A stretch of DNA of 22,422 nucleotides from the IMG/VR virus record IMGVR_UViG_3300009507_000143, positions 1 to 22,422 of that record. One strand, written 5' to 3'. Under the pieces are notes generated by a model. That model saw nothing but the letters and a program-made list of their open reading frames with translations. It was not told where the DNA came from and ran no database searches. The translations under genes were made by a program, and so were the position numbers. This DNA is from a virus. Positions within the stretch are counted from its first letter, which is position 1; the number at the start of each line of letters is the position of its first letter. This document shows, piece by piece, positions 1,768-22,422 of the stretch.

Positions 1768-2457
1768 TTAATCAATAACTTTTAAGTAACTAAATAGGTA
1801 GGGTTTATTAAGATAATCATCTTCAAAATACTTTATACCTATTTTATTAAATCCAAACATCTCAGCTTTATATATAGCCTGGTCATATTCGTTTAAATGT
1901 TTCCATTCTTTCTTTCTACTTAATAGGTCTTTTGCTTTACTTTCCCAATCAGTAGAATCTATAAACTTCTCTAATTTACTTAAATTTAATAAAAATTCTT
2001 CAGAATTCCTAGCATCTAGTTCAAAATGAAATATTTCTACTGCTTGATCTTCATCTACCCAATCTACAGCAAAGTCTGCTCCATATTTAGGTTTCATATG
2101 AACCATTCTCCAAAGGTGTGGATGTTCTTTTGCTTTTTGTTTTATTTGTTCTAATGCTTCTCCTTTATAAGCTAGTCTATGAAGTATATGAGCATGATCA
2201 ATGAGTAGGTTAGGGTGTGAGTCTATTTCTGAATACCAATGTTGTAGCTGTACTTTCAACGCATCGTCAGGTACTCTCCTTGTCTGTCTTTCCTCTACTA
2301 AGACTGGTATTTCGTTAGAGGCGTAAAACTCTTTTTCTATAGCATTTAATTCATAACCTTCTCTATCAAAGAAAGACTCATTCCATTTTACATCAGCAAG
2401 TGTAGGACTATCTAGGTATAAATTTTCAAGTACAGTATAATTGTTCTTTTTAAACAT
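1768..2457 (-). CDS. Conserved phage protein of unknown function
   Basis: This is a complete 229-residue frame. I recognise its central block, around residues 112-145 (HPHLWRMVHMKPKYGADFAV followed by a WVDED segment), as a conserved block of hypothetical proteins in T4-like marine phages, but no function is known to me. The protein is acidic to neutral, rich in Trp, Tyr and His, and has no membrane segment or signal peptide. The start is fixed by a TAATG junction: the ATG at 2457 shares one base with the stop of the preceding gene, which implies translational coupling. It is the second to last gene visible in this run. Confidence 0.75.
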   Translation of the reverse strand: MFKKNNYTVLENLYLDSPTLADVKWNESFFDREGYELNAIEKEFYASNEIPVLVEERQTRRVPDDALKVQLQHWYSEIDSHPNLLIDHAHILHRLAYKGEALEQIKQKAKEHPHLWRMVHMKPKYGADFAVDWVDEDQAVEIFHFELDARNSEEFLLNLSKLEKFIDSTDWESKAKDLLSRKKEWKHLNEYDQAIYKAEMFGFNKIGIKYFEDDYLNKPYLFSYLKVID

Positions 2458-3005
2458 TATTTTTTACCTGATTTCATATTAGCACACCAGTGGTACATTT
2501 TACCTTTTTCCCCTCCGTACTTTTTAGCCTTAGCTCTTAATGAAGCAACAGAACCTTTACATGATGCTCCAGATTTTTTAACTCTGCCTGGTTTAGATTT
2601 ACCTTTTACTTTACCGTCTTTGTAGTTTTCGTTTTTAGAAAATGCATCTGGATTTGCAGAAAACTCTCCTACCTTAAAATGTAATTCAGATTCTATACCT
2701 AATACTCTTAACTTAGCACCAAAGAATTCTTCTTTTTCACTATTTTTTTGTAATCTAGCATTATAGTAATCAACATACATATATGCTTGTTTTTTAGTTA
2801 CCTTTTTAGTATTTTCATATTCACCTTCTTCATTTGTGTATATATAAAAAGTACCTGGGGTATCTTCAAAGATTGTTTTTATTTGATCGTTATCGAGATT
2901 ACGTTTAGGGTCTATCACACTAAGTACTATTAAAGTATCTTTACTTAGTTTAGTTTCTTCTTGTAATACCTCTCTTAAGAGGTTAATCATCTCTTTTTTA
3001 TTCAT
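2457..3005 (-). CDS. Phage protein with leader-like N-terminus and basic Cys-containing C-terminal module
   Basis: The frame is open from 3029, but I choose the ATG at 3005. It forms an ATGA overlap with the preceding stop and gives an N-terminus (MNKKEMINLLREVLQEE) of the same type as other proteins in this cluster, resembling a T4 capsid-targeting leader ending in Glu. The product is then 182 residues. The middle (about 20-115) is mixed alpha/beta. The C-terminal 50 residues form a strongly basic module (KPGRVKKSGASCKGSV, then KKYGGEKGKMYHWCANMKSG) with Cys149 and Cys174. I know this module from many phage hypothetical proteins; its function is unknown. DNA or metal binding is possible but unproven. 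It is probably packaged in the virion if the leader is genuine. Confidence 0.75.
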   Translation of the reverse strand: MNKKEMINLLREVLQEETKLSKDTLIVLSVIDPKRNLDNDQIKTIFEDTPGTFYIYTNEEGEYENTKKVTKKQAYMYVDYYNARLQKNSEKEEFFGAKLRVLGIESELHFKVGEFSANPDAFSKNENYKDGKVKGKSKPGRVKKSGASCKGSVASLRAKAKKYGGEKGKMYHWCANMKSGKK

Positions 3006-3475
3006 TTTAAAGGTCCTCCTCCTACCCAAGCATCACAAGTTCTAGCACCGGCACATTTGAACCAGAAGAATTCACAGAACCCTATATTAGATTGTTTTAC
3101 AATTTTTTCTCCTTGATCTCCAATAGCCTTCGCTATCTTTTTTAAAGTAGCAGGTTTTTGGTTAAAAGCCGAACAGTTAGAACATCTTGAAGTTTTAGCA
3201 TGCTCTACTGTAGTGTCCCACATCTCTGCTTTATCTTCCCAAAACTTCTTTGAACCTTTTTCATCGTCTGGATTAAGAGGTCCGTATCTATATTCTTTTA
3301 CAGTAACATTTCGACCTAAAGTATTAAGATCTAGATCCTCTATAGAATCCATAGGTTTAACTTTCTTACCTTCTATCTCTTTTTCTTTTTTAAGAGCAGC
3401 AGGAGTATTATTATCTCCAAAATCAGAAAGCTTACCTTCTAATACTAACTCTTTTATTAGATCTGTTATTTTCAT
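3002..3475 (-). CDS. Conserved Cys-rich phage protein, candidate metal or Fe-S binder with capsid-targeting-like leader
   Basis: A 157-residue protein. It opens with MKITDLIKELVLEG, which matches the leader type shared by several proteins here. The conserved body starts near residue 56 (NVTVKEYRYGPLNPDD) and carries five cysteines: Cys98 and Cys101 (RCSNCSAF), Cys134 (GFCEFFWF), Cys141 and Cys147 (KCAGARTCDAW). This arrangement is familiar from hypothetical proteins of marine and T4-like phages and looks like a metal or Fe-S site, although the ligand set is not known to me. Both ends overlap neighbouring genes by four bases (ATGA), so it is translated as part of a coupled run. The family recognition is good and the biochemical role is unknown. 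Confidence 0.8.
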   Translation of the reverse strand: MKITDLIKELVLEGKLSDFGDNNTPAALKKEKEIEGKKVKPMDSIEDLDLNTLGRNVTVKEYRYGPLNPDDEKGSKKFWEDKAEMWDTTVEHAKTSRCSNCSAFNQKPATLKKIAKAIGDQGEKIVKQSNIGFCEFFWFKCAGARTCDAWVGGGPLK

Positions 3476-4383
3476 TTTACTTTATCAGGATTAAGAGCTA
3501 CTAATTTATCTGCTTCTTTATCTCTACCGCTTCTTCTTAAGTAGTCTATATAGTTCTGATCTTCTTCTTTAGGTCCATCATCTTGCTTATTTTTACCAAA
3601 ATTATTTGCAAGCCAGTTTAGTGTTTTTTCTTCAGACCAATTCCAGTTACTCATTATATAGTCAACTAACTCTTGACCTTTAATTGCTCTTTCATTACCT
3701 TCTCCTTCTTTTTTAATCTTCTTACCGGCTTTTACTGCATCTTTATGTGCATTAGAGTTTTTATGGGCAGGTTTTTCACCTCTAGCTCTTTTAGCTCTAA
3801 TATTAGCCCATAGACCTGGTTTTTCTTCTTTAAGTTCTTTTAATGCTTTTTTTAAATTACGAATACCTTCTTTGGTTACTTTTTTATATCCTGATCCGTA
3901 AGGTGCTGCTTTTCCATCTTGAGGATTAGCTGTTTCCAGTTTAGTTGGGGTTGCCAACTTATCTAATGTCTGGAGAACCATTTCTAAAGCATCTCTACCA
4001 ATAGCCATTTGATCTTGTTCAAAATGCATGTCTGGGTCATGACCTACTCCCATTGCTATTTTCTTATAATCTTCGTAAACTTCTTCTACTGCCTCCCTTA
4101 TCGTCTCTATAGTAGCATCAGTTTCATCTAATAGCTCATCTATACCTTCTATAAACTCTTGGGCCATCCATGCTGCAAACTGCTCTTCATTCATTTTATA
4201 AATTGGATGATCTGACGGTCCAGGATTATAGCCCAGGTATCTTTCTAGATATCCACCTATAGTATCGTAGATGTACTCTTCCATATCATCTTTAGTAAAT
4301 GATCTATCATCATTCTCTTGCTTTAATGCATTGCCTGCTTTCTCAGCTTGTAGTTCTTTTAATGCTTTTTTTAAGTTTTTCAT
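3472..4383 (-). CDS. Two-part phage protein with duplicated leader-like segment
   Basis: This 303-residue protein looks like two small phage proteins joined. Part one begins MKNLKKALKELQAEK and continues as an acidic helical domain to about residue 145. After a linker, residues 175-188 repeat the opening almost exactly (IRNLKKALKELKEEK). They are followed by a basic motif, PGLWANIRAKRARGEKPAHK (189-208), that I recognise from small phage proteins that usually stand alone. A final helical region holds Trp246, Trp248 and Trp257. The duplication is also visible in the DNA. The ATG at 4383 lies four bases after the previous stop, and the 3' end overlaps the next start by ATGA. Fusion is inference. 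A head-internal or scaffold-associated role is likely but untested. Confidence 0.75.
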   Translation of the reverse strand: MKNLKKALKELQAEKAGNALKQENDDRSFTKDDMEEYIYDTIGGYLERYLGYNPGPSDHPIYKMNEEQFAAWMAQEFIEGIDELLDETDATIETIREAVEEVYEDYKKIAMGVGHDPDMHFEQDQMAIGRDALEMVLQTLDKLATPTKLETANPQDGKAAPYGSGYKKVTKEGIRNLKKALKELKEEKPGLWANIRAKRARGEKPAHKNSNAHKDAVKAGKKIKKEGEGNERAIKGQELVDYIMSNWNWSEEKTLNWLANNFGKNKQDDGPKEEDQNYIDYLRRSGRDKEADKLVALNPDKVK

Positions 4384-4387
4384 ATTA

Positions 4388-4741
4388 TTATCCTTCAGAG
4401 TGCATCATTAACATTCTAATTACAATACCTGCTATAGTACCAAAAATGATCCAAAGAGCTCTAGTTACGCCTGCTTTCCAGTTTTTAAGTTCAACTAATT
4501 CATTTATATAAGTATTATATTCTTTTTCTCTAGATTCTTTTTCTAATCTAAATTCAGTATTTTTGTTGGTATTTACAATTACGCCATTATCTGGGTTGAG
4601 TAAAGTAAATTTAAGATCTGTCATATCTTCTTTTACTTTTTCAAAGTCCTTAGCCATCTGTTTTAGCTCACCATTAGGCATATGAGTCTTAACATGCTTG
4701 ATTTCAGCTAATACTGATTCAAGTATTTGTTTCTGGGTCAT
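4388..4741 (-). CDS. Small coiled-coil protein with C-terminal membrane segment (holin/XhlA-like topology)
   Basis: A 117-residue protein. Residues 1-90 are charged, helical and heptad-like. One hydrophobic segment near residues 93-112 (ALWIIFGTIAGIVIRMLMM) is followed by a short tail. This topology, an N-terminal coil and one C-terminal transmembrane helix, resembles XhlA-type lysis accessory proteins and small phage holin-like proteins. However, I see no signature that proves a lysis role and no endolysin next to it. The first residues (MTQKQILESVLAEI) weakly resemble the capsid leaders of its neighbours. The start is preceded by a 28-base AT-rich gap without a clear Shine-Dalgarno sequence. 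Confidence 0.6.
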   Translation of the reverse strand: MTQKQILESVLAEIKHVKTHMPNGELKQMAKDFEKVKEDMTDLKFTLLNPDNGVIVNTNKNTEFRLEKESREKEYNTYINELVELKNWKAGVTRALWIIFGTIAGIVIRMLMMHSEG

Positions 4742-4769: not shown

Positions 4770-5345
4770 TTATCCTAAACGTTCACGAACTATAGAAGAA
4801 TACTCTAAAACTTTTTTAGTAATAGATTCACTATGTTTTTTTTTGTTATGTTTCCATTCTTCTATATCTCCTTGTTCAGTAACAAAAGTATCTACATCTT
4901 GAATTTTATCCTCTAACCAAAGTTCTAGATCCTTAAGGAATCCGTCCATATTATTCTGAAGCATTTGCTTTTCGTATTGCTCGTAAAGGCCTGCTTTTCG
5001 AAGGGAGGTTTCATAGTCAACAGTACAGTCAAAGCAAAACCCATGTATACGGTACATTTTTTTGTGTAAATGATGTCTCATGGGACCGACACATTTAGGA
5101 CAGGTAAGAGGCATTCTATTAGCCTTTTTAGCTTTGTCTAATTTAGTGATATTTTGTTTTAAACCATTTTTAATAGTCCAGTTCTTTCCGTTTTCTTCCC
5201 AGACGTCTCCTTCTTTATGGTGTTCAATAGCCTTCTTGTACCCAGATTGTTGTTTAGTAGAAGAAGTATAGTCTTTATTGACTAAATTTCTTACTCGTTG
5301 AACATCTGATTGTTTAAATTCTTTTTTAAGTAAAGATTCACTCAT
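4770..5345 (-). CDS. Conserved phage protein with Cys4 zinc-ribbon-like site
   Basis: A 191-residue protein of a family I recognise from T4-like marine phages. A conserved block at residues 46-71 (GDVWEENGKNWTIKNGLKQN) leads to a Cys4 site: Cys82-x2-Cys85 (TCPKCVGPM) and Cys104-x2-Cys107 (FCFDC), separated by a His-rich stretch (RHHLHKKM). The C-terminal half is a long charged helix ending in a segment with the family's FVTEQGDIEEW motif. It probably binds zinc, and the function is unknown. The start overlaps the stop of the HAD gene by eight bases. There is no leader-like N-terminus, unlike several neighbours. Confidence 0.75.
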   Translation of the reverse strand: MSESLLKKEFKQSDVQRVRNLVNKDYTSSTKQQSGYKKAIEHHKEGDVWEENGKNWTIKNGLKQNITKLDKAKKANRMPLTCPKCVGPMRHHLHKKMYRIHGFCFDCTVDYETSLRKAGLYEQYEKQMLQNNMDGFLKDLELWLEDKIQDVDTFVTEQGDIEEWKHNKKKHSESITKKVLEYSSIVRERLG

Positions 5346-5883
5346 AACCTAACTCTTTTAATTTATCAATTACATGGTCAACGTTTCCATCTTTACATCT
5401 AATTGCTATACCGCCTTTAGCTGCCCATTCGTTGATATTAGACTTCTTATCGTCTATTAGTATACTATTTTCATTTGCATATCTCTGCTTATCTTTAGAG
5501 TATGCCATTATTACTTTCGGCTTAGGATTAAGGTTATTCTTAGCCCATAGCTGTTTTCCTAATCTTGAAGCATTATCTCTAGATGGAGAAGTGAGTAAAT
5601 CTGGTTTGTATGGCTGTATAAATTCCCAGAGTTTTTTTCCTTGTGGCATCCAAGGCATACCTATCCAAAATTTTATACCTACCTCCACATCTATTAAGTT
5701 CCAAAATGCTGCTAAACCTTTTGACTTTTCATATTCTTGTGGATGCATACCAGAATAATGTTCAAACCTTTCTTCAAAATTAGTAAGTACTCCATCCATA
5801 TCACAGTATATCTTGTACTTAGGTACCTGCTTTTCTTCAGGAATAGGGTATGCTTCTAATAATTCTACTATACTTTTTTTCAT
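5338..5883 (-). CDS. HAD-family phosphatase, 5'(3')-deoxyribonucleotidase-like, with leader-like N-terminus
   Basis: HAD phosphohydrolase motifs are present. Motif I is YCDMDGVLTNF, with nucleophile Asp28 and acid/base Asp30. Motif II is a Thr/Ser in LLTSPSRD (about 98). A Lys in the KVIMAYSKDKQRY region serves as motif III. Motif IV is ILIDDKKSNI (Asp144/Asp145). This pattern and the 181-residue length match the small nucleotidase-like HAD proteins often seen in phages, which act on nucleoside monophosphates or similar small substrates; the substrate here is not proven. The frame is open from 5901, but I choose the ATG at 5883. It forms a TAATG junction with the preceding gene and gives MKKSIVELLEAY, a leader like those of nearby proteins. 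That suggests an enzyme carried in the head. Confidence 0.8.
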   Translation of the reverse strand: MKKSIVELLEAYPIPEEKQVPKYKIYCDMDGVLTNFEERFEHYSGMHPQEYEKSKGLAAFWNLIDVEVGIKFWIGMPWMPQGKKLWEFIQPYKPDLLTSPSRDNASRLGKQLWAKNNLNPKPKVIMAYSKDKQRYANENSILIDDKKSNINEWAAKGGIAIRCKDGNVDHVIDKLKELGYE

Positions 5884-6281: not shown

Positions 6282-7490
6282 TTATCCTTCATCTCCAACT
6301 TTTTTTACAGAATCTTCCCAATTTCTAAAAGTAATATTTCCTTTTAAATAAGCTTCTTTTTCTAACTCTAATAAATTATCATCTTCATTAGTATCTGATG
6401 TATGTATATTTCCTAATCTACCTTCTAAGTTTTGCATATGATGAATCATTTCATGTACGAAAGATCTCACAATATCTTTAGGGTGTCTTCCTTCTGTATA
6501 AAGTACAATTTCTTTACCATTAGGATCATAGTATGCAGTTCTACCGAAAAAATTAGCAGCATTTGCTTCATCTTTTACAGTTTTAATTTCTGGTAGAGGA
6601 GTAATTTTCATTCCTTCATCTATCATATATTCTAATATAGATGCTATATGAGTAGTGTATACTGGTATGTTTGTTTTTTGTTCTTCCATATTACTGTCTT
6701 TGACTGAAACTGTAAAATGAGTTTGATTAAATTCTATATTACTGTAAAATGGCATTAATCTTTTAGTATATTCGTATAAGTATCCTAATTTCTGTCTATC
6801 AAAATTATTAGTTACTTTAGATGGGGATTCAGTAATAGTATCTTCTGAGCTAAACATTTCTTCAAAAAGATTTTCCATCTTTTGATTCATTATCTCAGAT
6901 ATAATATTGTCTTTAAGCATTTTAAGAATTATCAGAAGTTCTTCTCTTTTAAGTTCTTTAGGAAAAAAATCAGTTAATTCATCTAAATTACCACTAAGTG
7001 CAGCTTTACGAAGATCTGATGCTCTAACATTATTACCTTCAGCTGCTGGTATTACTAATCCTGTTACGTTAGTAGTATTTTTATATGTAGTTATTCTTCT
7101 TAAATCAACTAAATCATCTTCACTTCTAATCCCTGTGATTGCATAAAAAGAATCATTAGGACTTTCTTTAGCATAATCTTTGGCAGCAAACATAGGATTT
7201 TTTTGACCATCTGCTATCTCTATACCAGGTAAGTATTTAGAGTAAATTTTCCATATAGTTACAGCCTCAGCTTTAGTAATCCCGTTTCTTTCTCCTCCTC
7301 CAGGGAAAACTACAACCTTAGTAATTTTTTCAGCTTTACTTGATTCTCCAGAAAGAGAGGAGATACCTACATCCTTATAATTGTCTTTTGTATATACCTG
7401 ACCACCATGAGTACCGTTAAGTAAACTTTTAACGACTTCAAAATGACCTCTATGAGGTGGTTTAAATGCTCCTGGGTATAGTGCTATCAT
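6282..7490 (-). CDS. Fusion of a nucleotidyltransferase domain and an HExxH metallopeptidase domain
   Basis: Residues 1 to about 180 form a cytidylyltransferase/NMN-adenylyltransferase-type domain. It opens with LYPGAFKPPHRGHFEVV (HxGH motif, His13/His16) and has a late NVRASDLRKA segment in the place of the ISxTxxR motif. Residues from about 205 form a different domain ending in FVHEMIHHMQNLE (His346, Glu347, His350), a zinc metallopeptidase site, with a plausible third ligand in ELEKEAYLKG (about Glu379). A short MENLFEEMFSSE segment at the junction (205-216) looks like the start of a once separate protein. Nucleotide transfer could serve NAD or lipid/sugar precursors; the substrate is unknown. 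The gene is coupled to the kinase gene by an ATGA overlap and precedes a second HExxH gene. Confidence 0.8.
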   Translation of the reverse strand: MIALYPGAFKPPHRGHFEVVKSLLNGTHGGQVYTKDNYKDVGISSLSGESSKAEKITKVVVFPGGGERNGITKAEAVTIWKIYSKYLPGIEIADGQKNPMFAAKDYAKESPNDSFYAITGIRSEDDLVDLRRITTYKNTTNVTGLVIPAAEGNNVRASDLRKAALSGNLDELTDFFPKELKREELLIILKMLKDNIISEIMNQKMENLFEEMFSSEDTITESPSKVTNNFDRQKLGYLYEYTKRLMPFYSNIEFNQTHFTVSVKDSNMEEQKTNIPVYTTHIASILEYMIDEGMKITPLPEIKTVKDEANAANFFGRTAYYDPNGKEIVLYTEGRHPKDIVRSFVHEMIHHMQNLEGRLGNIHTSDTNEDDNLLELEKEAYLKGNITFRNWEDSVKKVGDEG

Positions 7491-8422
7491 AAGAACGCTT
7501 GTACTTTTTGATCTATTTCAGCAGGGGATGAATGTTGTAGTAATTGTTGAAACTCTGGGCTATATAACATATCTGCAATACTATCTAATACTGCATCATT
7601 TCTTTCGTCTGAGCTTACTTTACCCTCTCTATATTTCTTGACTGCATCTTTAAGTTTATCTTCTCCAGGACCTGTCCCTATCTTTTTATATGATTTTAAG
7701 AAGGCAGTCTTGAGAGCTTTATCTTCAGATCTTTGATCTTTATTCCAATCTACATTTACAACAGCCTTGTTAAACTCTTGTTCCTCTTCTTGAGACATAA
7801 CTACTGGTTTAAAGAAAGAGCTCTTGCCATAACCTGTTTTTTCGTTGTAAGCTTTTAAATAATCTTTAATACCTGTTACTCCATTTTTAGCAGCAGTATT
7901 AAAAGCTTCTATTTCTTTTTTAAATTCTTCTCCTCTATCGTTTACAAATATAGAAAAGTTACCTTTAAGTTTCTTTCTAAAGTCTCCTATCTTTTGATAA
8001 GCATTTCTCCAAGTAGTGAATACAGATGAAGCAGGTATATTTCTACCTCTTTTGAAATTAGATATATAAGATATCATAGGATGAGTATAGACCATGACCA
8101 TATATACGTCATAGCCGCCTTTAAGGAGTTTGTTTAAGTTCTCGTCAAACTTAGCTCCTGAAGCAGTAGTATCCCATACTAGGCTAATTTTGTCTTCTGC
8201 CGCTGCTAGTACGTCCTTTTCCACTTGTCGACTGGCTGCCCCGAGATTGTTGAAGTACGGGTGATCCTTGTCCTCGACGTATTTGTCTGGGTTGAACTGT
8301 TCTAGGCTGTCTAGGTTGAGTTGGTTGAGTAGGTACGACTTGCCTGATCCCGCTCCTCCTGCCATTATTACGGCTTTCGGTTTGTTCGTTGCTTCTAATA
8401 TTAGGTCTGTTAATTTGATCAT
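7487..8422 (-). CDS. Zeta-toxin-like P-loop kinase with capsid-targeting-like leader
   Basis: A 311-residue protein. MIKLTDLILEA opens it and matches the leader type of other proteins here. A beta strand and Walker A follow (PKAVIMAGGAGSGKSYLL, Gly22-Ser29). Next come an acidic strand end, LVWDTTASG (83-89), and a basic FKRGRNIPASS segment (123-133) resembling the substrate-binding lid of zeta-toxin/polynucleotide-kinase-like enzymes. The C-terminal 160 residues are charged helices of unknown role. It likely phosphorylates a small molecule, sugar nucleotide or nucleic acid; which one is not visible. The start is firm because the Walker A strand begins at residue 15. The first 239 bases overlap the lipoprotein gene in another frame. 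There the kinase codons end in T only 4 times in 79, against 33 in the next 79. Confidence 0.8.
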   Translation of the reverse strand: MIKLTDLILEATNKPKAVIMAGGAGSGKSYLLNQLNLDSLEQFNPDKYVEDKDHPYFNNLGAASRQVEKDVLAAAEDKISLVWDTTASGAKFDENLNKLLKGGYDVYMVMVYTHPMISYISNFKRGRNIPASSVFTTWRNAYQKIGDFRKKLKGNFSIFVNDRGEEFKKEIEAFNTAAKNGVTGIKDYLKAYNEKTGYGKSSFFKPVVMSQEEEQEFNKAVVNVDWNKDQRSEDKALKTAFLKSYKKIGTGPGEDKLKDAVKKYREGKVSSDERNDAVLDSIADMLYSPEFQQLLQHSSPAEIDQKVQAFL

Positions 8423-8849
8423 CTCTTAATCTAGGTTGTGGTGTTGGTCTTGGTCTTGTTCTAGGTCTTGTTCTAGGTCTTGTTCTAGGTTCATTAATTC
8501 TTGGTCTAACTCTCGGGTTAACCGTCGGTCTAATAGGTGTGCTATAATAAATAGGACGGTGATTGTTCCAATAAAAATAAGGTTGATTCCAGCCATAGTA
8601 TCCGTTGTTCCAGTAGTAATTGTAGTTCCAGCTGTACCAGTTAGAATCAAAGTTCCATCTGTAAGAGTTGTTTGAAAAGGATTCTTTATTAAAATACCTA
8701 CTGTTGTAAGGTACTTGTATAGTATCTCCTGATTTTGTAACTGCAAGAATATATTCAATATCATAACCTTTATTTTTAGTAGCTACAGAATAACTGCCGC
8801 AGCTATATAAAGATAAGAAAATAAATGCATATATTAAACTATTTTTCAT
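8184..8849 (-). CDS. Phage-encoded lipoprotein with Tyr/Trp/Asn-rich core and Arg/Pro/Gln-rich tail overlapping the kinase gene
   Basis: A 221-residue protein with a lipoprotein signal: MKNSLIYAFIFLSLYSC, lipobox Cys17 followed by GS. It would be exported, acylated and anchored to a membrane. Residues 60-105 are rich in Tyr, Trp and Asn (NYYWNNGYYGWNQPYFYW). Residues 105-221 are rich in Arg, Pro, Gln, Ser and Gly, including a 12-base tandem repeat giving RTRP units. The style resembles small lipoproteins of Flavobacteriia, which hints at the host. The start forms an ATGA overlap with the nuclease gene, and a candidate promoter element lies 24 bases upstream. Residues 143-221 are encoded by DNA that also encodes the kinase N-terminus in a +1-shifted frame. 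A role in altering the host envelope is inference. Confidence 0.75.
   Translation of the reverse strand: MKNSLIYAFIFLSLYSCGSYSVATKNKGYDIEYILAVTKSGDTIQVPYNSRYFNKESFSNNSYRWNFDSNWYSWNYNYYWNNGYYGWNQPYFYWNNHRPIYYSTPIRPTVNPRVRPRINEPRTRPRTRPRTRPRPTPQPRLRDDQINRPNIRSNEQTESRNNGRRSGIRQVVPTQPTQPRQPRTVQPRQIRRGQGSPVLQQSRGSQSTSGKGRTSSGRRQN
8452..8487 (-). repeat. 12-base tandem repeat encoding Arg-Thr-Arg-Pro units
   Basis: Three perfect, adjacent copies of ggtcttgttcta (plus-strand reading), with degenerate continuation on both sides. They encode the RTRPRTRPRTRP stretch of the lipoprotein, just before the region shared with the kinase gene. In-frame expansion by slippage is the likely origin. Confidence 0.85.
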
Positions 8850-9628
8850 ACTTTTATTGTTGTTGGATAACTATTATAAATAGGTTCAGTATTAGGGTTC
8901 TCTAGTTCGTATAACCTGTATATTAATTTAAAGAGTTCAAAGTTTTTATCGATTTCATCAATCTGTAATAGCTTCCATCCTTTGCCTTGAATAATTTTCT
9001 TTTGTTTAGAAGGTCCTCGAGATTGAGCCTTTAACCAAAGTATAGCAGTCCTATCAATCTTAATACCCCGACTCTCCTCAAGTCCTTTTGCGTAAGAGGC
9101 TAATTGTAGGTCATAAGACTTATGTATGCTGTTAGACGTTTTTATATCTATTAGCCACACTTCTCCATTCATTTTACAGACTATATCTGCTGTACCGGCA
9201 AACTTATGTTCGTCAGACCATACAAATTGTTCAGAAGATATAAGTTCAGGTTTATAGGTCTTCCAGAAATCAGCAAACTTAAGTATCATTTCCCATACTA
9301 GCTGGGAATATTTAGCTCTACCGTAATCATCCATCCAGGATACTTCCCTTCCCTCCACTAATTCTTCTGCTGCTTCATGTACCTGAGTACCTTCTTTACC
9401 TGCTTTACGCATAATAAGATCGGCGTTATGCCCAACGTCCTTCATCCATGTTTCGAAGAACTTATTCTTGGGCATGTATTGGAGTATAGTAGTTACGGAC
9501 GGATAATATACTCCTTCGCCTCTCTTATAGACTCTGCGGTCTAAAAAATTAATCTGTTTTAATTCCGGATTAAAGTCTAATCGTTTTTTCTCGTTTTGTT
9601 CGAGAATGTTCATACCTTGTTTTATCAT
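8846..9628 (-). CDS. PD-(D/E)XK nuclease, RecB/Cas4-like family
   Basis: A 260-residue protein with the motif series of RecB-type nucleases. GTQVHEAAEEL (His84) is followed by a Glu in SSEQFVW (about 133) and HKFAGTADIV (Asp148). Then come VWLIDIKTS (Asp161 and Lys163, the D-x-K core) and DLQLASYAKG (Gln175, Tyr179). The mostly conserved site suggests an active metal-dependent DNA exonuclease or single-strand nuclease used in phage replication or recombination. There are no four-cysteine Fe-S ligands as in Cas4. It directly follows the primase gene (ATGA overlap) and overlaps the lipoprotein start in the same way, so a replication pair is joined to virion-type genes in one transcript. Confidence 0.85.
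   Translation of the reverse strand: MIKQGMNILEQNEKKRLDFNPELKQINFLDRRVYKRGEGVYYPSVTTILQYMPKNKFFETWMKDVGHNADLIMRKAGKEGTQVHEAAEELVEGREVSWMDDYGRAKYSQLVWEMILKFADFWKTYKPELISSEQFVWSDEHKFAGTADIVCKMNGEVWLIDIKTSNSIHKSYDLQLASYAKGLEESRGIKIDRTAILWLKAQSRGPSKQKKIIQGKGWKLLQIDEIDKNFELFKLIYRLYELENPNTEPIYNSYPTTIKV
8874..8882 (-). promoter_or_regulatory. Candidate phage promoter element TATTTATAA
   Basis: The coding strand reads TATTTATAA, 24 bases before the lipoprotein ATG at 8849 and inside the end of the nuclease gene. It matches the element before genes starting at 1728, 17361 and 20111. A promoter here would separate lipoprotein and kinase expression from the replication genes. Support is recurrence only. 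Confidence 0.28.
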
Positions 9629-10548
9629 AGGTCTAATTTGTGCATCATCAAACTTGATAAGTCAAGTTCTCTAGCAGTTTGAATATGTTCGGTAAAAGCT
9701 TTAAAGCCCATTTCGGATGGGTCTTTGTCTGGTAAGTCTATTAAGAAGACTCTTTTACCTTGGTTAAGAAATTTTTCTCCTACTTCTAATGCACGATCTT
9801 TAGCATCAGTATCAAGAGCAATATAGATATCCTTTACTTTACCTGTAATAATTTTTTTATAAAGTGAGGTGGATATACTTTTACCTAAAATAGGAATAGC
9901 ATTTCGTTTTATGGCCATGGCATCAAATACACCTTCGCATAAAATAATTGGCTGATCCCAATTAATTAAATTTTCAAAAAAGATTATGTCTTTGGAAGCT
10001 TCTGGATTTTTGTACTTATAATAATTTCCGTCATAAGTTCGTGCAACAAAAAAGTTGAGTTGGTTGGATCCATTATAACTTGGGATAATAACTCTTCCTC
10101 CATAGTCTCCAGTTGTGCAGTACCCAATGCTATATTTAATAAAATCATTGTCGGTAAGTCCTCTATCATATAGGTATTTTTTAACTATGTTTGCAACAAC
10201 CGAAGTACTGGAAGCAGAATAAAGTGGTTGAACTTCTTTAGGTAGCTCTACTATAGATAGTCCTTTATATTCTGTAAAAGTACCTTTAGGAAGGTATTTT
10301 AAAATAGAAGCTGCTATATCTTTAGGAGTCTTTAATTGTCTTAGTAGAGACCGTATTGACTGGCCTCGGGTTTGGCATACCCAACACTCCCAGAAGTTTT
10401 TACCTTCTTCATTGGTTGCCATATTAATCTCTAGCTTAGGTTTGCGATGATTACAAAAAGGGCAATGGAAAGCATAGTTGTCTCTAGCTCTCTTATGACT
10501 TTTACTCAAAATGTTTTCAATGGATCCTAAAAGGAAGGTGTAGTCCAT
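9625..10548 (-). CDS. DNA primase, DnaG-like (zinc ribbon plus TOPRIM)
   Basis: A 307-residue primase that makes RNA primers for lagging-strand phage DNA synthesis. The N-terminal zinc site is Cys29-x2-Cys32 (HCPFCNHRK) with Cys55-x2-Cys58 (FWECWVCQTRG). The central region carries the DnaG-type GGRVIIPSYN motif (150-159). The TOPRIM domain follows, with Glu205 in IILCEGVFDAMAI, the LDTDAKD acid pair (Asp246/Asp248) and acids in LPDKDPSE (273-279). It is shorter than bacterial DnaG because it lacks a long C-terminal helicase-binding domain, which is usual for phages. It starts its own run after a 53-base gap, and its stop overlaps the nuclease start (ATGA). A bacterial-type or T4 gp61-like lineage cannot be resolved by eye. 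Confidence 0.9.
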   Translation of the reverse strand: MDYTFLLGSIENILSKSHKRARDNYAFHCPFCNHRKPKLEINMATNEEGKNFWECWVCQTRGQSIRSLLRQLKTPKDIAASILKYLPKGTFTEYKGLSIVELPKEVQPLYSASSTSVVANIVKKYLYDRGLTDNDFIKYSIGYCTTGDYGGRVIIPSYNGSNQLNFFVARTYDGNYYKYKNPEASKDIIFFENLINWDQPIILCEGVFDAMAIKRNAIPILGKSISTSLYKKIITGKVKDIYIALDTDAKDRALEVGEKFLNQGKRVFLIDLPDKDPSEMGFKAFTEHIQTARELDLSSLMMHKLDL

Positions 10549-10601: not shown

Positions 10602-10802
10602 CTATTTACCCTCTTTAAATAGTAAATCACTAATAGCAGCAGTTACTGTTTGCTCTAATAAAGATTTATTATCTACGTCTAAGTAGTCTTGAAGTTTAGT
10701 AGAAATAGCTTCAGCTAGTTTAATTATGTCGTTTTCTGACAGATCTAGCTGTTCTCTTACTACATATTTTTTATTTTCTAAAATAATTTTTGATAACTTC
10801 AT
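10602..10802 (-). CDS. Short protein with capsid-targeting-like leader
   Basis: A 66-residue protein that begins MKLSKIILENKKY, nearly the same opening as the next gene upstream (MKLSRIILAES). It continues as an acidic amphipathic helical protein with no cysteines and no membrane segment. The resemblance to T4 internal-protein leaders ending Ile-Leu-Glu suggests packaging in the head and cleavage after Glu9. The mature peptide function is unknown. It starts six bases after the previous stop. Confidence 0.65.
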   Translation of the reverse strand: MKLSKIILENKKYVVREQLDLSENDIIKLAEAISTKLQDYLDVDNKSLLEQTVTAAISDLLFKEGK

Positions 10803-10807
10803 AATTT

Positions 10808-11167
10808 CTAATCTAATCCGGATGTTCTACCAGCAGATCTTTCTCTATCTAAATAAGCTGCTTTACCAGCTGTATAACTTTTTTTGTCTGCTCTAAATTT
10901 ATCATCTAATACTTGTACTCTTTCCCAAGGAGATTGTACTTCAGTATCAATTTTTAGATTTACGTTGCCGTATTTATTTTCTATACCTGCTTTCCAACTT
11001 TCTAAATCTTCACTATTTTGTATGCTTCTGTATGAATCGTCAGGGTTAGGTAAGTTAAAGCCAAACATAGGTTTTTCCCCAAACATAGATAAAAGGAGCT
11101 CGAAGGTAAGATTTTGTAAGTCTGTTACCTTAGTACTTTCTGCTAATATAATTCTACTTAGTTTCAT
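10808..11167 (-). CDS. Small protein with capsid-targeting-like leader
   Basis: A 119-residue protein. It opens with MKLSRIILAEST, which fits a prohead-protease leader cut after Glu10. The remainder has a Phe/Pro-rich block (FGEKPMFGFNLPNPDD) and a C-terminal basic stretch (DDKFRADKKSYTAGKAAYLD) that I recall loosely from small proteins of T4-like marine phages. No enzyme motif is visible. Its start overlaps the stop of the 45-residue gene (ATGA). It is probably translated together with the 66-residue gene that follows. Confidence 0.65.
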   Translation of the reverse strand: MKLSRIILAESTKVTDLQNLTFELLLSMFGEKPMFGFNLPNPDDSYRSIQNSEDLESWKAGIENKYGNVNLKIDTEVQSPWERVQVLDDKFRADKKSYTAGKAAYLDRERSAGRTSGLD

Positions 11168-17418: not shown

Positions 17419-18609
17419 TTATGGTGTTGGTGATGTACTTGGTGTTGGTGTTGGTGTTATTGAAATACTAGGAGTAATATCAGGAGTTACAGATATACTA
17501 GGAGTTACAGTAGGTGTAATTGTTATTGTAGGAGTTACAGTAGGGGTAATTGTTATTGATGGACTTATAGTAGTGCTAGGTGATGGTGATGGGTCTACAA
17601 TTAAATTATTAGATTTATCTATTACCAGACCTGCTTGATCAGTAGTTACTACTCTACCGGATTCAATGTTAAAAACTTTACTATTAACTAATCTTACATA
17701 TCTATTTGATTCAGTATCAAATTCGTAAACATAGTTACCTACCTGAGGTATTCTAGAATAACTAGAGACTGTAGCAGATGAGCTAATGATTCTGTCTTTA
17801 TCGAAATCAAAATATATCTGTTCTATAATTCTTTCAGATGCATTAATCTTAGATATTGTAATATTATCTGAATCATCAGTATGTATAGATCCTCCAAACT
17901 GAGTAAAGGATAATCCTGGTGAATCTCCTACTACACTTCCGCTTGTAAGTTTAGTTCCACTGTACCTACTGTTTGTTAACCCGGTATCTGTATAATTAGA
18001 ATCTTGAACGTTTGCTTTTACTGCAGAGCGACTAATAATAGACTCAAAATTTTTAGGGTTAATTTGGGATTCATTTCGATCTACTATAAACTTAAATGAA
18101 TTTGGTTCTAAATTAGTTGCGTTACTAAGGAGAGTTTCATATTCAGAGTTAGTAAAAGTTCCTACAATAAATGGATCTAATAATACTGCTTCGTTTTCAG
18201 TAGCTGAAGGGATATTATTAAAGGACCCGTTTTGATCTGATTCGTAGTTAATTGAAGAAGATGTAAAACTTTCACTTACAAACGTGCTATTGTCTCCTAA
18301 TACAAATGTTTCGTTATTAATATAGCTAGATTGATCAAACTGTACAAAATAATATCCACTTTTTCTTGTTTTTTGAGATACATCAAAAATAACTTTATCT
18401 ATAGTTTCAGGAGAGTCTTTTTTATTTATAGTAAATTCAGTTAACTGTTGAAGTGAGTTTTCTATATTTATTCCGTTAGCACTTTCAAATGGTATACATG
18501 CTCCAACAATAGTAAAGTTACCACTTTGACCTATAGATTGAGAATATAATAAATTTATAGTTCCGTTTTGAGGTTTTGTATTAGAAAATTGAAATATACT
18601 AATTGGCAT
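17419..18609 (-). CDS. Tail protein with C-terminal Ser/Thr/Pro repeat tract, no Hint domain
   Basis: A 396-residue protein. Residues 1-338 are Ser/Asn/Thr-rich, beta-type sequence (MPISIFQFSNTKPQNGTINL at the start) without a known enzyme motif. Residues 339-396 are a Pro tract of ITITPTVTP and ISVTPDITP units, the same low-complexity type as in the two upstream Hint proteins, ending abruptly in STSPTP. Neither the Asn-Ser-Pro-Pro segment nor the Cys module nor Hint follows, and the next 57 bases hold no remnant of them. It may be a related host-contact or fibre component. No Shine-Dalgarno sequence is clear before the ATG, five bases after the preceding stop. Confidence 0.75.
   Translation of the reverse strand: MPISIFQFSNTKPQNGTINLLYSQSIGQSGNFTIVGACIPFESANGINIENSLQQLTEFTINKKDSPETIDKVIFDVSQKTRKSGYYFVQFDQSSYINNETFVLGDNSTFVSESFTSSSINYESDQNGSFNNIPSATENEAVLLDPFIVGTFTNSEYETLLSNATNLEPNSFKFIVDRNESQINPKNFESIISRSAVKANVQDSNYTDTGLTNSRYSGTKLTSGSVVGDSPGLSFTQFGGSIHTDDSDNITISKINASERIIEQIYFDFDKDRIISSSATVSSYSRIPQVGNYVYEFDTESNRYVRLVNSKVFNIESGRVVTTDQAGLVIDKSNNLIVDPSPSPSTTISPSITITPTVTPTITITPTVTPSISVTPDITPSISITPTPTPSTSPTP
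17422..17595 (-). repeat. Coding repeat tract for Thr/Ser-Pro units (third copy)
   Basis: Low-complexity DNA encodes residues 339-396 of the 396-residue protein. It includes two adjacent, nearly identical 30-base units (17501-17530 and 17531-17560, two mismatches). Its units match in type those at 19302-19793 and 20897-21350, so exchange among the three genes is possible. Confidence 0.8.
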
Positions 18610-18614
18610 AATTA

Positions 18615-20111
18615 CTACTTTATGTTATGAGTTAAAATACTGTTAGCATAGTAGACATCATCGGTCTCTACATTTAATTTATATACAGTAGTTTCTCTAT
18701 CTTCAAAATTAATATCAGTTATTTCTATCAAGTTACCATTAATATCTTCATAGTAATCCCCAACTGTTACATCGCTTGCTTTTTTGACATACCATATATT
18801 ATCTCTCATAACGATATGTAGGTGTTTACCTGTAGTAGAAAGTGAACCGCTATTGAAATTATAAATACCTCTAATGCTAAATCCAGGATTAGAAGTTACT
18901 AAGGCTGTGCTGCTTGATCCACTAATACTACTCCCGCTCCATGCAACTAAGATTTCCTGGTCATCAGTATCTGGTAATTCAGAAATATTTTTAGATAATA
19001 CTTCATCTCCAACTTGTAATGTTTCTACTGCTACAGAAGAGCTAGGAGATGTTGCAATTAATGTTCCTTCGATTACACATTGACAATCAGCGACATAATA
19101 GGCTGCTGCACTGTAAACCCAGCATTCATCATCAGTTGTAAAATAACCACCTGTGATCGTACCCGTACCTGTCATTGAGGTGTATAGGGTTTGACCGTTT
19201 CCGAAAGGTCCAACATGCCAAACATATGTATCAGGGATATCTGCACAAGCTTGAGTACAGTTAGAACTTCCAATCTGTCCAATTAGGGTACTTATTCTTC
19301 CAGGGGGAGAGTTTGGTGGTGTCTTCGATATTGAAATACTAGGTGTTTTACTAATAGATGGTGTTCTACTAATTGAAATACTAGGAGTCCTGCTTAAACT
19401 ATTAGGGGGTGAATTCGGTGGACTATTAGGTGGGCTATTAGGTGGGCTATTAGGAGGTGTTCTACTAGGTGTTCTAGTAGGGGATACTCCGGGTGTAACA
19501 CTAATCGATGGTGTTATACTAATAGTAGGTGTTATTGAGATGGTTGGGGTCCTGGTTATACTTACAGAGGTAGTCGGAGTAACGGAGGGTGTTAGTGAGG
19601 TGGATGGTGTTTTACTTACACTGATAGTTTTAGTTGGTGTGATAGAGGGAGTAACGCTAATAGTTGGAGTAATAGTAGGAGTAACGCTAATTGTTGGAGT
19701 AACGCTAATAGAGGGGGTTGCTGAAATACTAATAGTTGGAGTAACGGAAGGTGTAACACTTGGAGTGATACTTATAGTAGGAGTAGGAGAAGGTGGTATG
19801 TATGTAAATCCGTTAGTACAGTTGCTAACACTTCTGAAAATAAACTGAGGTCCTATTACATTTGTAGTAAGTCCTAGTCCGGCATTTAAACTATCCTTAC
19901 TAACTACATTAGTGTAGGTAATTCCTTCAGCTGTAATATCTTCTAATTTAGAGTCTGTATCGTCATATAGATTATGAACAAGTAGATCAACGCCAGGTTC
20001 TCCAGCTCTGGCTGAAGGTGTTTCGTTATTTAGGTACACTTCAAAAGGACCTGCATCGGCTATATTACCGAACGTGTTATTTCTTGCTCCTTTTACTAGA
20101 AAAACTGCCAT
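18615..20111 (-). CDS. Tail/surface protein with Pro-rich stalk and C-terminal Hint domain
   Basis: A 498-residue protein. Residues 1-106 are a distinct N-terminal domain (VKGARNNTFGNIADAGPFEV). Residues 107-270 form a Ser/Thr-Pro tract of ISVTPTITPT-type units, with four Asn-Ser-Pro-Pro copies at 221-236. Residues 284-343 form a Cys-containing module (NCTQACADIP, VGPFGNGQTLYTS). Cys345 begins a Hint domain: CVIEGTLIATSPSSSVAVET and LQVGDEVLSKN, a block-B-like TTGKHLHIV (Thr427, His430), and a C-terminal VETDDVYYANSILTHNIK with His495-Asn496. Hint domains cut or rearrange the backbone at the Cys, so the protein may be released or attached at that point. There is no C-terminal extein beyond two residues. 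It is probably a virion surface component. Confidence 0.85.
   Translation of the reverse strand: MAVFLVKGARNNTFGNIADAGPFEVYLNNETPSARAGEPGVDLLVHNLYDDTDSKLEDITAEGITYTNVVSKDSLNAGLGLTTNVIGPQFIFRSVSNCTNGFTYIPPSPTPTISITPSVTPSVTPTISISATPSISVTPTISVTPTITPTISVTPSITPTKTISVSKTPSTSLTPSVTPTTSVSITRTPTISITPTISITPSISVTPGVSPTRTPSRTPPNSPPNSPPNSPPNSPPNSLSRTPSISISRTPSISKTPSISISKTPPNSPPGRISTLIGQIGSSNCTQACADIPDTYVWHVGPFGNGQTLYTSMTGTGTITGGYFTTDDECWVYSAAAYYVADCQCVIEGTLIATSPSSSVAVETLQVGDEVLSKNISELPDTDDQEILVAWSGSSISGSSSTALVTSNPGFSIRGIYNFNSGSLSTTGKHLHIVMRDNIWYVKKASDVTVGDYYEDINGNLIEITDINFEDRETTVYKLNVETDDVYYANSILTHNIK
19302..19793 (-). repeat. Coding repeat tract for Ser/Thr-Pro and Asn-Ser-Pro-Pro units
   Basis: Short degenerate repeats encode residues 107-270 of the 498-residue protein. 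They include 12-base units around 19410-19460 (ggtgggctatta type) that give Asn-Ser-Pro-Pro. Codon choice varies between copies, so the amino-acid pattern is kept better than the DNA, which suggests selection on the stalk. Confidence 0.8.
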
Positions 20112-20163: not shown

Positions 20164-22422
20164 TTATTTTATATTATGAGTTAAAATACCTCCTGCATAG
20201 TATACATCATCTGTTTCTACATTTAACGGGTAAACTGTAAATGATCCTGTCTCTTCTGTAATAGTCGTAATTTCAACTAAAGCACCGCTTATATTTTCAA
20301 AATAATCTCCTACTGCTACATCTGAAGCTGCTTGAGTTAACCATTGAGATCCTCTCTTGACTATATGAGTGTGGGATTTAGTAGTCCTAAGTGTACCGTT
20401 GTTAAAGTTAAGTAAAGCTGATGAACTTAAAGCTGTATTAGCAGTAACTAGTGCGTTAGAGGCTGAACCGGTAATATTACTACCGCTCCAAGCAATTACT
20501 TCTTCCACGGTCATATCATCATCGAAGCTGTCAATATCTTTAGATAGTACTTGATCGCTTATAGCCAATGTTTCTACTGCAACTGATGAGCTAGGTGATG
20601 TAGCAATTAAAGTACCTTCAACTACACAACAGACACTATCTGATTGTACCTGCCCTGTTCCTGTTCCAATGTAGCAAGTAGATGCACTAGAATCAAATAT
20701 ATAATAACCTGAAGAGATAGTTCCACTACCCATCGCAGATGTATATATGGTTGTACCGGTTCCAAAACCTCCAACTGCCCAGTATGTAGTTTCGTTATAG
20801 CTAGATGCACAAGCTTGAGAACAGTTAATATAGCTAAGAGATCCAGGGAATGATGTTCTAGCGGCTGGTGGACTTTTAGATGGGGATGGGGTTACAGATA
20901 CCGATGGTGTTTTAGATACCGATGGTGTTTTAGATACCGATGGTGTTTTAGATACCGATGGTGTTCTAGATACAGATGCAGGTGGACTGTTTGGTGGACT
21001 ATTCGGTGGACTGTTTGGTGGACTATTAGGTGGACTGTTTGGTGGTGTTACACTAACAGACGGAGTATTAGATACTGAAATTGTCGGTGTTACACTAATA
21101 GATGGTGTATTAGATATTGATATAGAAGGTGTTACACTAATAGATGGTGTATTAGATATTGATATAGAAGGTGTTACCGATGTTCCTGGTGTAGCTGATA
21201 CTGATGGTGTAATACTAATCGTAGGAGTAATTGAGGGAGTGATAGTTGTAGAAACAGTTATACTAGGAGTAGCAGATGGAGTGATTGATATAGTAGGAGT
21301 TATGTCTGGAGTAACTGATATACTAGGAGTTATGGATACAGAAGGAGTAACCGGTACAAAGGTAAGTATAGAGAAAGCGCATATAAAAGATGCATCAAAA
21401 GGCTCTATATCAAATAAAAGGTTTAAACCAGATTCTTTTTTAAAAGTATTGTCTAGGTTCAAGTTTTGAGTTGCTGCTGTAATAGTGCTTCCGGAGAATT
21501 GACCATCTATTTTTCCTATGTCAAAATTACGATAAGTGCGTAAAGCAGATCCTGACGGGGTAAGTACAGTTTCAGTAAAAGAAGTACTAGCGCTAAAAGG
21601 TGTATCGAATACTCCTCCATCTGCTCCTTTAAACGTTGTCAAAGATTTTGACCCAGTAAATTCTGTCTGCTTTAAAGAACCAGATACTTGTTTTACTTTA
21701 CTTCTATTAAGAGCATTTGGTTTTACTATTATACCTACAGAAGCGTTAGTTCTAGCAGGAATAAAATCTTTTATAGACTTAAATAAAGTATTATCAAAAA
21801 ACCTTATTAGGTTTACGAAATCTTTTATATCGTACCTAGAGTTAGTTGAAGTATAATCATCAAGTAAACCTTGTAGTCCAGTATACTTAGTTAAAAATTC
21901 ATCAGATGGGGCTCCAATATAATCATCTATATTTAATCCTCCTGCGGCAGAGGCAGAGTTGTAAATCTGTACGTTTTCACTATCTGCGGTTGAAAATCCT
22001 ACTTCTAAGGTATGTCTAGTTTTAGATCTTTTTAATTCTTTACCGTAAATAGATATATCAGGTGACAGAGTACTACCTTCAATTATGGAACCTGTATGTT
22101 GGATGAATATATTATCTAATGATGCTGAAATATTAGAAATAGATCCTGTTATATTTTCTTCTGGAGATAGGTATACGTTATCTGAAAATAAAGATTCGTT
22201 AGGTACTTCTGTATTACCGTGTAGTTTAATACTAAGTATATCAGAAGGAATTCCGTAACAGTTTATAAGTGCTCTAAGTCCTCTTTCTGTTCCTTTTGTT
22301 TTTACTAAATAAGGTAAGTTGTGGTAAAGTCTTTTATATATTTCTTGTGCATAGGACTGCTTGGGCATTGGTTGCAAATACTCGTTAGTACCTGCTGATG
22401 CAGTAATATGAGTTGATGCAGG
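20164..22422 (-). CDS. Large tail protein with Pro-rich stalk and C-terminal Hint domain (5' end outside window)
   Basis: The frame stays open to the right edge, upstream of an apparent TTG at 22377, so the true start is outside; 752 codons are visible. Residues 1 to about 355 are a phage tail domain with EIYKRLYHNLPYLVKTKGTE and LRALINCYGIPSDILSIK, a block I know from tail proteins of marine phages. Residues 358-520 are Ser/Thr-Pro repeats with five Asn-Ser-Pro-Pro copies. Residues 533-598 are the Cys module (NCSQACASS, VGGFGTGTTIYTS). Hint runs from Cys599: CVVEGTLIATSPSSSVAVET, then TTKSHTHIV and a final VETDDVYYAGGILTHNIK (His749-Asn750). The last 220 residues clearly match the 498-residue neighbour. 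It is likely a baseplate or fibre-attachment protein. Confidence 0.85.
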   Translation of the reverse strand, partial: PASTHITASAGTNEYLQPMPKQSYAQEIYKRLYHNLPYLVKTKGTERGLRALINCYGIPSDILSIKLHGNTEVPNESLFSDNVYLSPEENITGSISNISASLDNIFIQHTGSIIEGSTLSPDISIYGKELKRSKTRHTLEVGFSTADSENVQIYNSASAAGGLNIDDYIGAPSDEFLTKYTGLQGLLDDYTSTNSRYDIKDFVNLIRFFDNTLFKSIKDFIPARTNASVGIIVKPNALNRSKVKQVSGSLKQTEFTGSKSLTTFKGADGGVFDTPFSASTSFTETVLTPSGSALRTYRNFDIGKIDGQFSGSTITAATQNLNLDNTFKKESGLNLLFDIEPFDASFICAFSILTFVPVTPSVSITPSISVTPDITPTISITPSATPSITVSTTITPSITPTISITPSVSATPGTSVTPSISISNTPSISVTPSISISNTPSISVTPTISVSNTPSVSVTPPNSPPNSPPNSPPNSPPNSPPASVSRTPSVSKTPSVSKTPSVSKTPSVSVTPSPSKSPPAARTSFPGSLSYINCSQACASSYNETTYWAVGGFGTGTTIYTSAMGSGTISSGYYIFDSSASTCYIGTGTGQVQSDSVCCVVEGTLIATSPSSSVAVETLAISDQVLSKDIDSFDDDMTVEEVIAWSGSNITGSASNALVTANTALSSSALLNFNNGTLRTTKSHTHIVKRGSQWLTQAASDVAVGDYFENISGALVEITTITEETGSFTVYPLNVETDDVYYAGGILTHNIK
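20897..20968 (-). repeat. 18-base tandem repeat encoding Lys-Thr-Pro-Ser-Val-Ser
   Basis: Four adjacent 18-base copies (gataccgatggtgtttta on the plus strand); the fourth differs at one base. They encode the KTPSVSKTPSVS stretch just before the Cys module of the right-hand Hint protein. Confidence 0.9.
20981..21040 (-). repeat. 12-base tandem repeat encoding Asn-Ser-Pro-Pro
   Basis: Five adjacent 12-base units, alternating ggtggactgttt with ggtggactattc or ggtggactatta. The alternation suggests a 24-base step of duplication. The four-residue Asn-Ser-Pro-Pro unit also occurs in the neighbouring Hint protein. Confidence 0.9.
21086..21169 (-). repeat. 42-base perfect tandem repeat in the Pro tract
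   Basis: Two identical 42-base copies (21086-21127 and 21128-21169) encode a 14-residue unit of SISISNTPSISVTP type. Exact identity in otherwise diverged repeats indicates a recent duplication. Confidence 0.9.

Follow-up and report, generated by a model that had tools for sequence, protein, structure and literature searches.

A phage lipoprotein tail very likely overprinted on the start of a P-loop kinase gene and selected for its composition

Two open frames over the start of a kinase gene

Can the first codons of an enzyme gene also encode the end of a lipoprotein and, if so, what does selection preserve in the second frame? The question is raised by a locus on a viral contig (IMG/VR record IMGVR_UViG_3300009507_000143), of which we analyzed a stretch of 22,422 nucleotides, called the window here. 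The genes of the locus follow each other on the minus strand in the order primase, exonuclease, lipoprotein, P-loop kinase and adenylyltransferase-like protein, with these features:

9625-10548, minus strand: primase gene (ORF list and profile searches)
8846-9628, minus strand: exonuclease gene
8184-8849, minus strand: lipoprotein gene, 221 aa (ORF list), with a signal peptide and lipobox (LSLYSC, Cys17), a Y/W/N-rich body, RPRT repeats and the putatively overprinted tail (residues 143-221)
7487-8422, minus strand: P-loop kinase-like protein, 311 aa, with a Zeta_toxin / polynucleotide kinase / PSTK-like fold
6282-7490, minus strand: adenylyltransferase-like protein
8184-8422, minus strand: dual-coding overlap, 239 nt, covering kinase codons 1-79 and lipoprotein codons 143-221 plus stop
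8393-8422, minus strand: kinase leader MIKLTDLILE with the L/I-X-E motif at residues 8-10 (translation)
8339-8365, minus strand: kinase Walker A region MAGGAGSGK (residues 20-28), read as NGRRSGIRQ in the lipoprotein frame (translation)
8184-8186, minus strand: lipoprotein stop TAG, formed from the kinase codons ATT AGC (Ile79-Ser80) (sequence)

An earlier note, made from the letters of this DNA, had claimed that positions 8184-8422 are open in two frames, and the ORF list places both frames where the note did. The first base of a lipoprotein codon is the third base of a kinase codon, again as claimed, and its second base is a kinase first base. We recovered the note's count of third-base T, which is found in 4 of kinase codons 1-79; the next 79 codons (80-158) are T-rich as it had said, with 32 such codons instead of 33. 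From codon 80 onward T ends 84 of 233 codons, significantly more than the 4 of 79 in the overlap (Fisher p = 8e-9). Among the four third-base T's of the overlap, one belongs to the TAG stop and three give lipoprotein Ser codons. The G+C content was also as claimed, at 111 of 236 bases in the overlap (47%) and 63 of 180 in positions 7981-8160, while the remainder of the window kinase has about 33%.

Four kinase scans of viral contigs identified 292 loci including the window, 128 of which are distinct over the first 600 nt of the kinase. The kinases of these relatives are 53-93% identical to that of the window. The lipoprotein frame is open for at least 200 nt into the kinase in 119 of the 128 distinct loci, nearly always for 227-242 nt; in L013 and L018 the overlap ends at kinase codon 71. 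We then recoded each kinase with synonymous codons taken from later kinase codons of the same set of loci. None of 23,600 such reshuffles opened the lipoprotein frame to its observed stop, and the mean open length was 8.6 codons. Both frames are open beyond chance over many divergent relatives, as genuine dual coding predicts.

The phages carrying the overlap form a large marine group, with related contigs reaching lengths of 167-191 kb. Among cultured phages, the nearest one found is Flavobacterium phage immuto (Immutovirus), making Flavobacteria their likely hosts. Its exonuclease and primase are 73% and 63% identical to those of the window and the gene order around the locus is the same; however, another gene, nucleotidyltransferase-like by eye but not by profile, stands in place of the lipoprotein and kinase. 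The immuto homologue of the adenylyltransferase-like gene encodes 907 aa with an additional N-terminal part (cf. L295 7764-10487). The window's own version (6282-7490, minus strand) has a HEMIHH metalloprotease-like motif close to its C-terminus.

Codon choice in the overlap and after its release

We sorted the kinase codons in which T is silent by the product that T gives in the lipoprotein frame, using codons 2-70 of 117 overlapped loci and, as control, kinase codons 84 onward. T making a lipoprotein stop is found at 4 of 1924 positions in the overlap (0.002), at 0.69 in non-overlapped relatives, at 0.28 in relic losses and at 0.66 in the control. For T making Cys, the respective values are 3/879 (0.003), 0.41, 0.20 and 0.51; for T making F/L, they are 0.08, 0.54, 0.14 and 0.47; and for T making Ser, they are 0.37, 0.58, 0.27 and 0.55. 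Taking F/L, Y and W as classes, T is used in 8-11% of overlap codons compared with 37-69% of control codons. The pattern stays when the set is thinned to 45 loci at 80% identity or to 9 at 65%, and the classes other than stop and Ser go in the same direction in all 45 thinned loci. Sites that are silent in the kinase are under selection in the second frame.

The avoidance also has a sharp edge. Third-base T stands at 0.01 in the last five codons before each locus's own stop and at 0.55 in the first five after it (n = 117), so that the earlier note's observation of a codon shift ending at the lipoprotein stop is true of the window and general across the 117 overlapped relatives. In nine loci with an overlap of 203-215 nt (stop at about codon 67-71), T is already back at codons 72-76 (16/45), whereas the same codons in longer overlaps have T at 20/455 (p = 2.5e-9). 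Folding detected nothing unusual in the RNA structure of the overlap (z = 0.63), and we rejected RNA structure as the cause of the codon pattern.

Several relatives provide natural experiments in which the two genes have come apart. In L002 and L003 the kinase shares 91% identity with that of the window, but the lipoprotein ends in an R/S/N/G-rich tail of its own, the stop of which falls just upstream of the kinase ATG. Their kinase starts show background values, with third-base T in 34-36 of 79 codons and a G+C content of about 32%. Kinase residues in both stay like those of the window clade, and the difference at fourfold sites is 0.67 inside the former overlap versus 0.42 outside, suggesting that codon relaxation after release is fast. 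Own lipoprotein tails are also found in L157, L033 and L065, and the lipoprotein is lost in L032, L050 and L181. Kinase starts of relatives with an own-tailed or lost lipoprotein are ordinary and T-rich in codon use, with three exceptions. As expected for recent losses, L032, L033 and L065 are intermediate, with 12-15 T, 4-7 stops and 42-44% G+C. A further clade (L372-L379) has an own lipoprotein ending with an 8-nt overlap and 28-33 T, and in its member L374 the lipoprotein ends at the kinase start in another frame; the neighbors of this clade (L380-L392) are overlapped, with 2-10 T. On a kinase tree built from residues outside the overlap, well-supported branches require eight changes of architecture. 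The tree is unrooted for the ancestral state: the kinases of Pelagibacter and Methylophilales phages, the sole outgroup, are very distant, and the separated L372-L379 lie near the base.

The earlier note had named relatives with an interrupted lipoprotein frame and the same kinase codon pattern as the case that would speak against dual coding. Such a combination is found in part, in 6 of the 128 loci. Three of them are the intermediate L032, L033 and L065, in which the codon pattern is itself decaying. The other three (L067, L076 and L226; 3/128) keep the open-type tail, but their lipoprotein frame appears to be broken once, which could reflect sequencing errors, recent decay or tolerance of loss. 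L076 also has a methyltransferase-like gene (by eye) at 2950-3552, between exonuclease and lipoprotein.

Composition of the lipoprotein tail

The lipoprotein starts with a hydrophobic leader followed by Cys17, a predicted signal peptide and lipobox. The putatively lipid-bearing Cys17 (15 relatives), G41-D42-T43 and V46 are invariant among lipoprotein relatives. No match to the protein was found in Pfam, PHROG, PADLOC or named phages. AlphaFold2 predicts just the signal helix and two short strands at a mean pLDDT of 47, a value consistent with disorder and equally with a thin alignment. The product probably resides in the outer membrane as a lipoprotein carrying a long basic tail, and interference with receptors or the envelope would be our guess for its role. 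We dropped a reading as u-spanin, given the basic, hydrophilic tail without a C-terminal transmembrane segment. At least two quite different lipoprotein bodies (a short GDT type and a long AQYA type) are found on the same kind of tail (L001-L080, L372-L392), suggesting that the body is exchanged by recombination with the tail staying with the kinase. In L356 (797-1273), a lipoprotein of the family has no kinase downstream and its own tail ends in GKGCAKC.

The tail is basic, Cys-free, rich in R/S/Q/P/G/N and probably disordered; Cys is absent from it in 116 of the 117 overlapped loci. In separated relatives, unrelated tails of similar composition stand in for the overprinted one. Net charge per 75 residues is +11.5 for overprinted tails and +10.4 for own tails, and the share of disorder-type residues is 0.86 and 0.83, respectively. 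The two kinds of tail are alike in Ser, Pro and the absence of Cys and differ in Q versus N.

We looked among the relatives for purifying selection on lipoprotein residues, part of the test that the earlier note had proposed. It is evident against stops, Cys and hydrophobic residues, and transitions that are silent in the kinase but make a lipoprotein stop occur at 0.012, roughly one-fortieth of the 0.51 in the control region. Conversely, other changes are about as frequent as in the control, with no clear signal at the level of individual residues: the NN/NS ratio from overlap-aware N/S counts resembles that of the control region, and a matched A-C test at silent sites was not significant. 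With no clear residue-identity signal beyond stops, Cys and hydrophobics, the constraint appears to act on openness and composition. Such composition-only selection can escape dN/dS-type tests for overlapping genes.

Could the codon pattern have arisen without a selected tail? One alternative holds that the frame is fortuitously open because the kinase start became G+C-rich through recombination, expression codon choice or an RNA element, the lipoprotein simply ending near the kinase start. The 47% G+C of the region against 33% in the kinase remainder fits this account, and unusual codon usage is common at the 5' ends of genes. Yet the avoidance of T is not uniform and depends on what T does to the lipoprotein frame (0.37 for Ser, near zero for stop and Cys), the edge tracks each locus's own stop, kinases 91% identical with a separated lipoprotein have 34-36 T of 79, and RNA folding is ordinary, making a fortuitous frame very improbable. 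Even less probable is programmed frameshifting that fuses lipoprotein and kinase, the second frame serving one joined product. The two frames do overlap on one strand, but a 236-nt open overlap is unnecessary for a frameshift; moreover, a separate kinase ATG is conserved in the relatives examined, and loci lacking the lipoprotein (L050, L181 and L032) have a free-standing kinase with an unchanged N-terminus.

The alternative that deserves more weight, though we still consider it unlikely, is a tail that is translated but useless, from which stops are purged since altered termination harms kinase initiation or translational coupling. Some relatives lack the lipoprotein gene, and non-stop changes that are nonsynonymous in the lipoprotein are about as common as their equivalents in the control region, both in line with a dispensable tail. 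However, damage from altered termination would not explain why Cys (3/879) is kept out no less strictly than stops and why F/L/Y/W are depleted with Ser tolerated, nor why the own tails of separated lipoproteins, though unbound by the kinase, are similar in charge and residue classes. Class-specific avoidance of T, an edge at each locus's own stop and loss of the pattern without overlap can be accounted for only by selection on the lipoprotein frame. It is unlikely that a nucleotide-level cause would separate Ser from Cys, while a translated, exported tail can. The same three observations bear out the earlier note's proposal that both frames are translated; on this sequence evidence, both products are very probably made. 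We thus hold it very likely that this is a genuine, long-standing terminal overlap in which the kinase is the older frame and the lipoprotein tail an overprinted extension selected for composition.

The kinase, the origin of the overlap and known systems

The kinase matches the Pfam family Zeta_toxin (PF06414; E = 8e-11, 42.1 bits with a cut-off of 22.3), carries the Walker A motif GGAGSGK and also matches PHROG 2071 'ATPase'. Its structural model has a pLDDT of 86, with O-phosphoseryl-tRNA kinase, zeta toxin and polynucleotide kinase as nearest solved folds. Zeta toxins are toxic through UDP-sugar phosphorylation and are neutralized by the epsilon antitoxin. The Walker A residues M20, A21, G22, G27 and K28 are invariant, and in the leader L9 and E10 are invariant in 27 relatives.

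In T4, residues 1-10 of IPIII make up the capsid-targeting sequence, and cleavage by gp21 takes place behind L/I-X-E (PMC9026906). The kinase leader MIKLTDLILE appears to resemble such a T4-type sequence, and three long related contigs encode a Peptidase_S77 prohead protease. The likeness has limits: the residue after the putative cut varies, and the exonuclease likewise has ILE at residues 8-10. Leaders with L/I-X-E within about 16 residues (MKLSKIILE, MIKLTDLILE, MKLSRIILAE) are common in proteins of the window, which may be internal, injected head proteins:

2457-3005, 3002-3475, 3472-4383, 4388-4741, minus strand: proteins with such leaders
5338-5883, 7487-8422, 10602-10802, 10808-11167, minus strand: further proteins with such leaders

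The earlier note's suggestion that the tail is overprinted on a conserved kinase start is upheld, as the kinase belongs to a widespread P-loop family and we found no relatives of the tail outside the overlap. Pelagibacter and Methylophilales phages have distant homologues of the kinase, whose overlap with the preceding gene does not exceed 53 nt. Together with the Zeta_toxin membership, this identifies the kinase as the older frame.

How could such an overlap arise? Ribosomes translating the lipoprotein would read about 78 codons beyond the kinase start, in a frame where each codon begins with the kinase wobble base. What the tail would need to provide is an open, hydrophilic, basic, Cys-free and probably disordered exported segment of no fixed sequence, and a segment of this kind can be written into kinase silent sites. 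Stops in the lipoprotein frame all begin with a kinase wobble T, and all those counted in nine separated loci are silently removable, so that stepwise extension from an ordinary 8-nt overlap would be possible. In L376-L379 a single T, in kinase codon 2, blocks the junction, with further stops downstream. Shorter stepwise intermediates were not found among the relatives collected. Once the lipoprotein disappears or again has a tail of its own, the kinase silent sites would relax to the A+T-rich codon usage of the phage. We infer the stepwise growth, as well as the disorder of the tail and its role at the cell envelope. We lean, by a small degree, toward a lineage that over deep time repeatedly swaps between its own DNA and kinase silent sites as the source of the tail, the wobble positions serving as reusable code. 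If so, the tail is selected by residue class and not by sequence, and each release relaxes the enzyme's codons toward background.

Two-component spanins (Rz/Rz1 and relatives) likewise involve a phage lipoprotein gene that overlaps its neighbor in another frame. Spanin families have both overlapped and separated members, one pair with an 8 bp overlap only, and their overlaps are thought to be eased by the lack of a required structure (PMC6139136). In spanins, however, the 3' end of the i-spanin lies over the 5' signal region of the o-spanin for 70-155 bp (mixed families) and the partners act in one complex, whereas in the present locus the lipoprotein is the upstream gene, with a 3' tail that extends over the start and P-loop of a soluble kinase. 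The partner at this locus is thus a soluble P-loop kinase and not an inner-membrane i-spanin with an N-terminal transmembrane segment.

Modeling predicts that terminal same-strand overlaps, the type to which the lipoprotein/kinase overlap belongs, arise more often when the upstream gene is elongated at its 3' end (PMC3887535). A survey of overlaps of more than 60 bp in 338 prokaryote genomes retained zero real co-directional cases (PMC2478687); the overlap described here is, in contrast, 239 nt long, lies in phages and is found in more than 100 distinct sequences. Viruses are richer in overlaps (PMC7017920), and in overprinted viral proteins (Rancurel et al., Willis and Masel) the newer frame is disorder-prone, easing conflict with the older folded frame (PMC8227390). 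The lipoprotein tail is alike in being a disorder-prone newer frame over a folded older one. Unlike the reviewed cases, which are mostly new proteins of small viruses, it is a C-terminal tail only. It also lies in phages with contigs of up to 191 kb, for which compression is no obvious need, and the same type of tail exists un-overlapped.

Overlapped and separated phage lipoprotein genes (spanins) and disorder in overprinted frames were already known. What this locus adds is deep replication, selection on residue classes with no detectable selection on identity, and a natural release that has happened repeatedly. Long same-strand overlaps in prokaryotes have almost always been judged annotation errors, and the rise, persistence and dissolution of real ones have mostly been modeled. 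With more than 100 natural replicates, close overlapped and separated pairs and decaying relics, it allows direct measurement of what dual coding costs, which property is selected in the second frame and how fast codons relax.

Elsewhere in the window, two minus-strand proteins (18615-20111 and 20164-22377) combine TPSIS / PPNSPP repeats with a C-terminal Hint/intein-like domain ending ...LTHNIK, and the former has Intein_splicing (2.5e-6) and Hint_2 matches. Similar repeats are found without a Hint/intein-like domain at 17419-18609.
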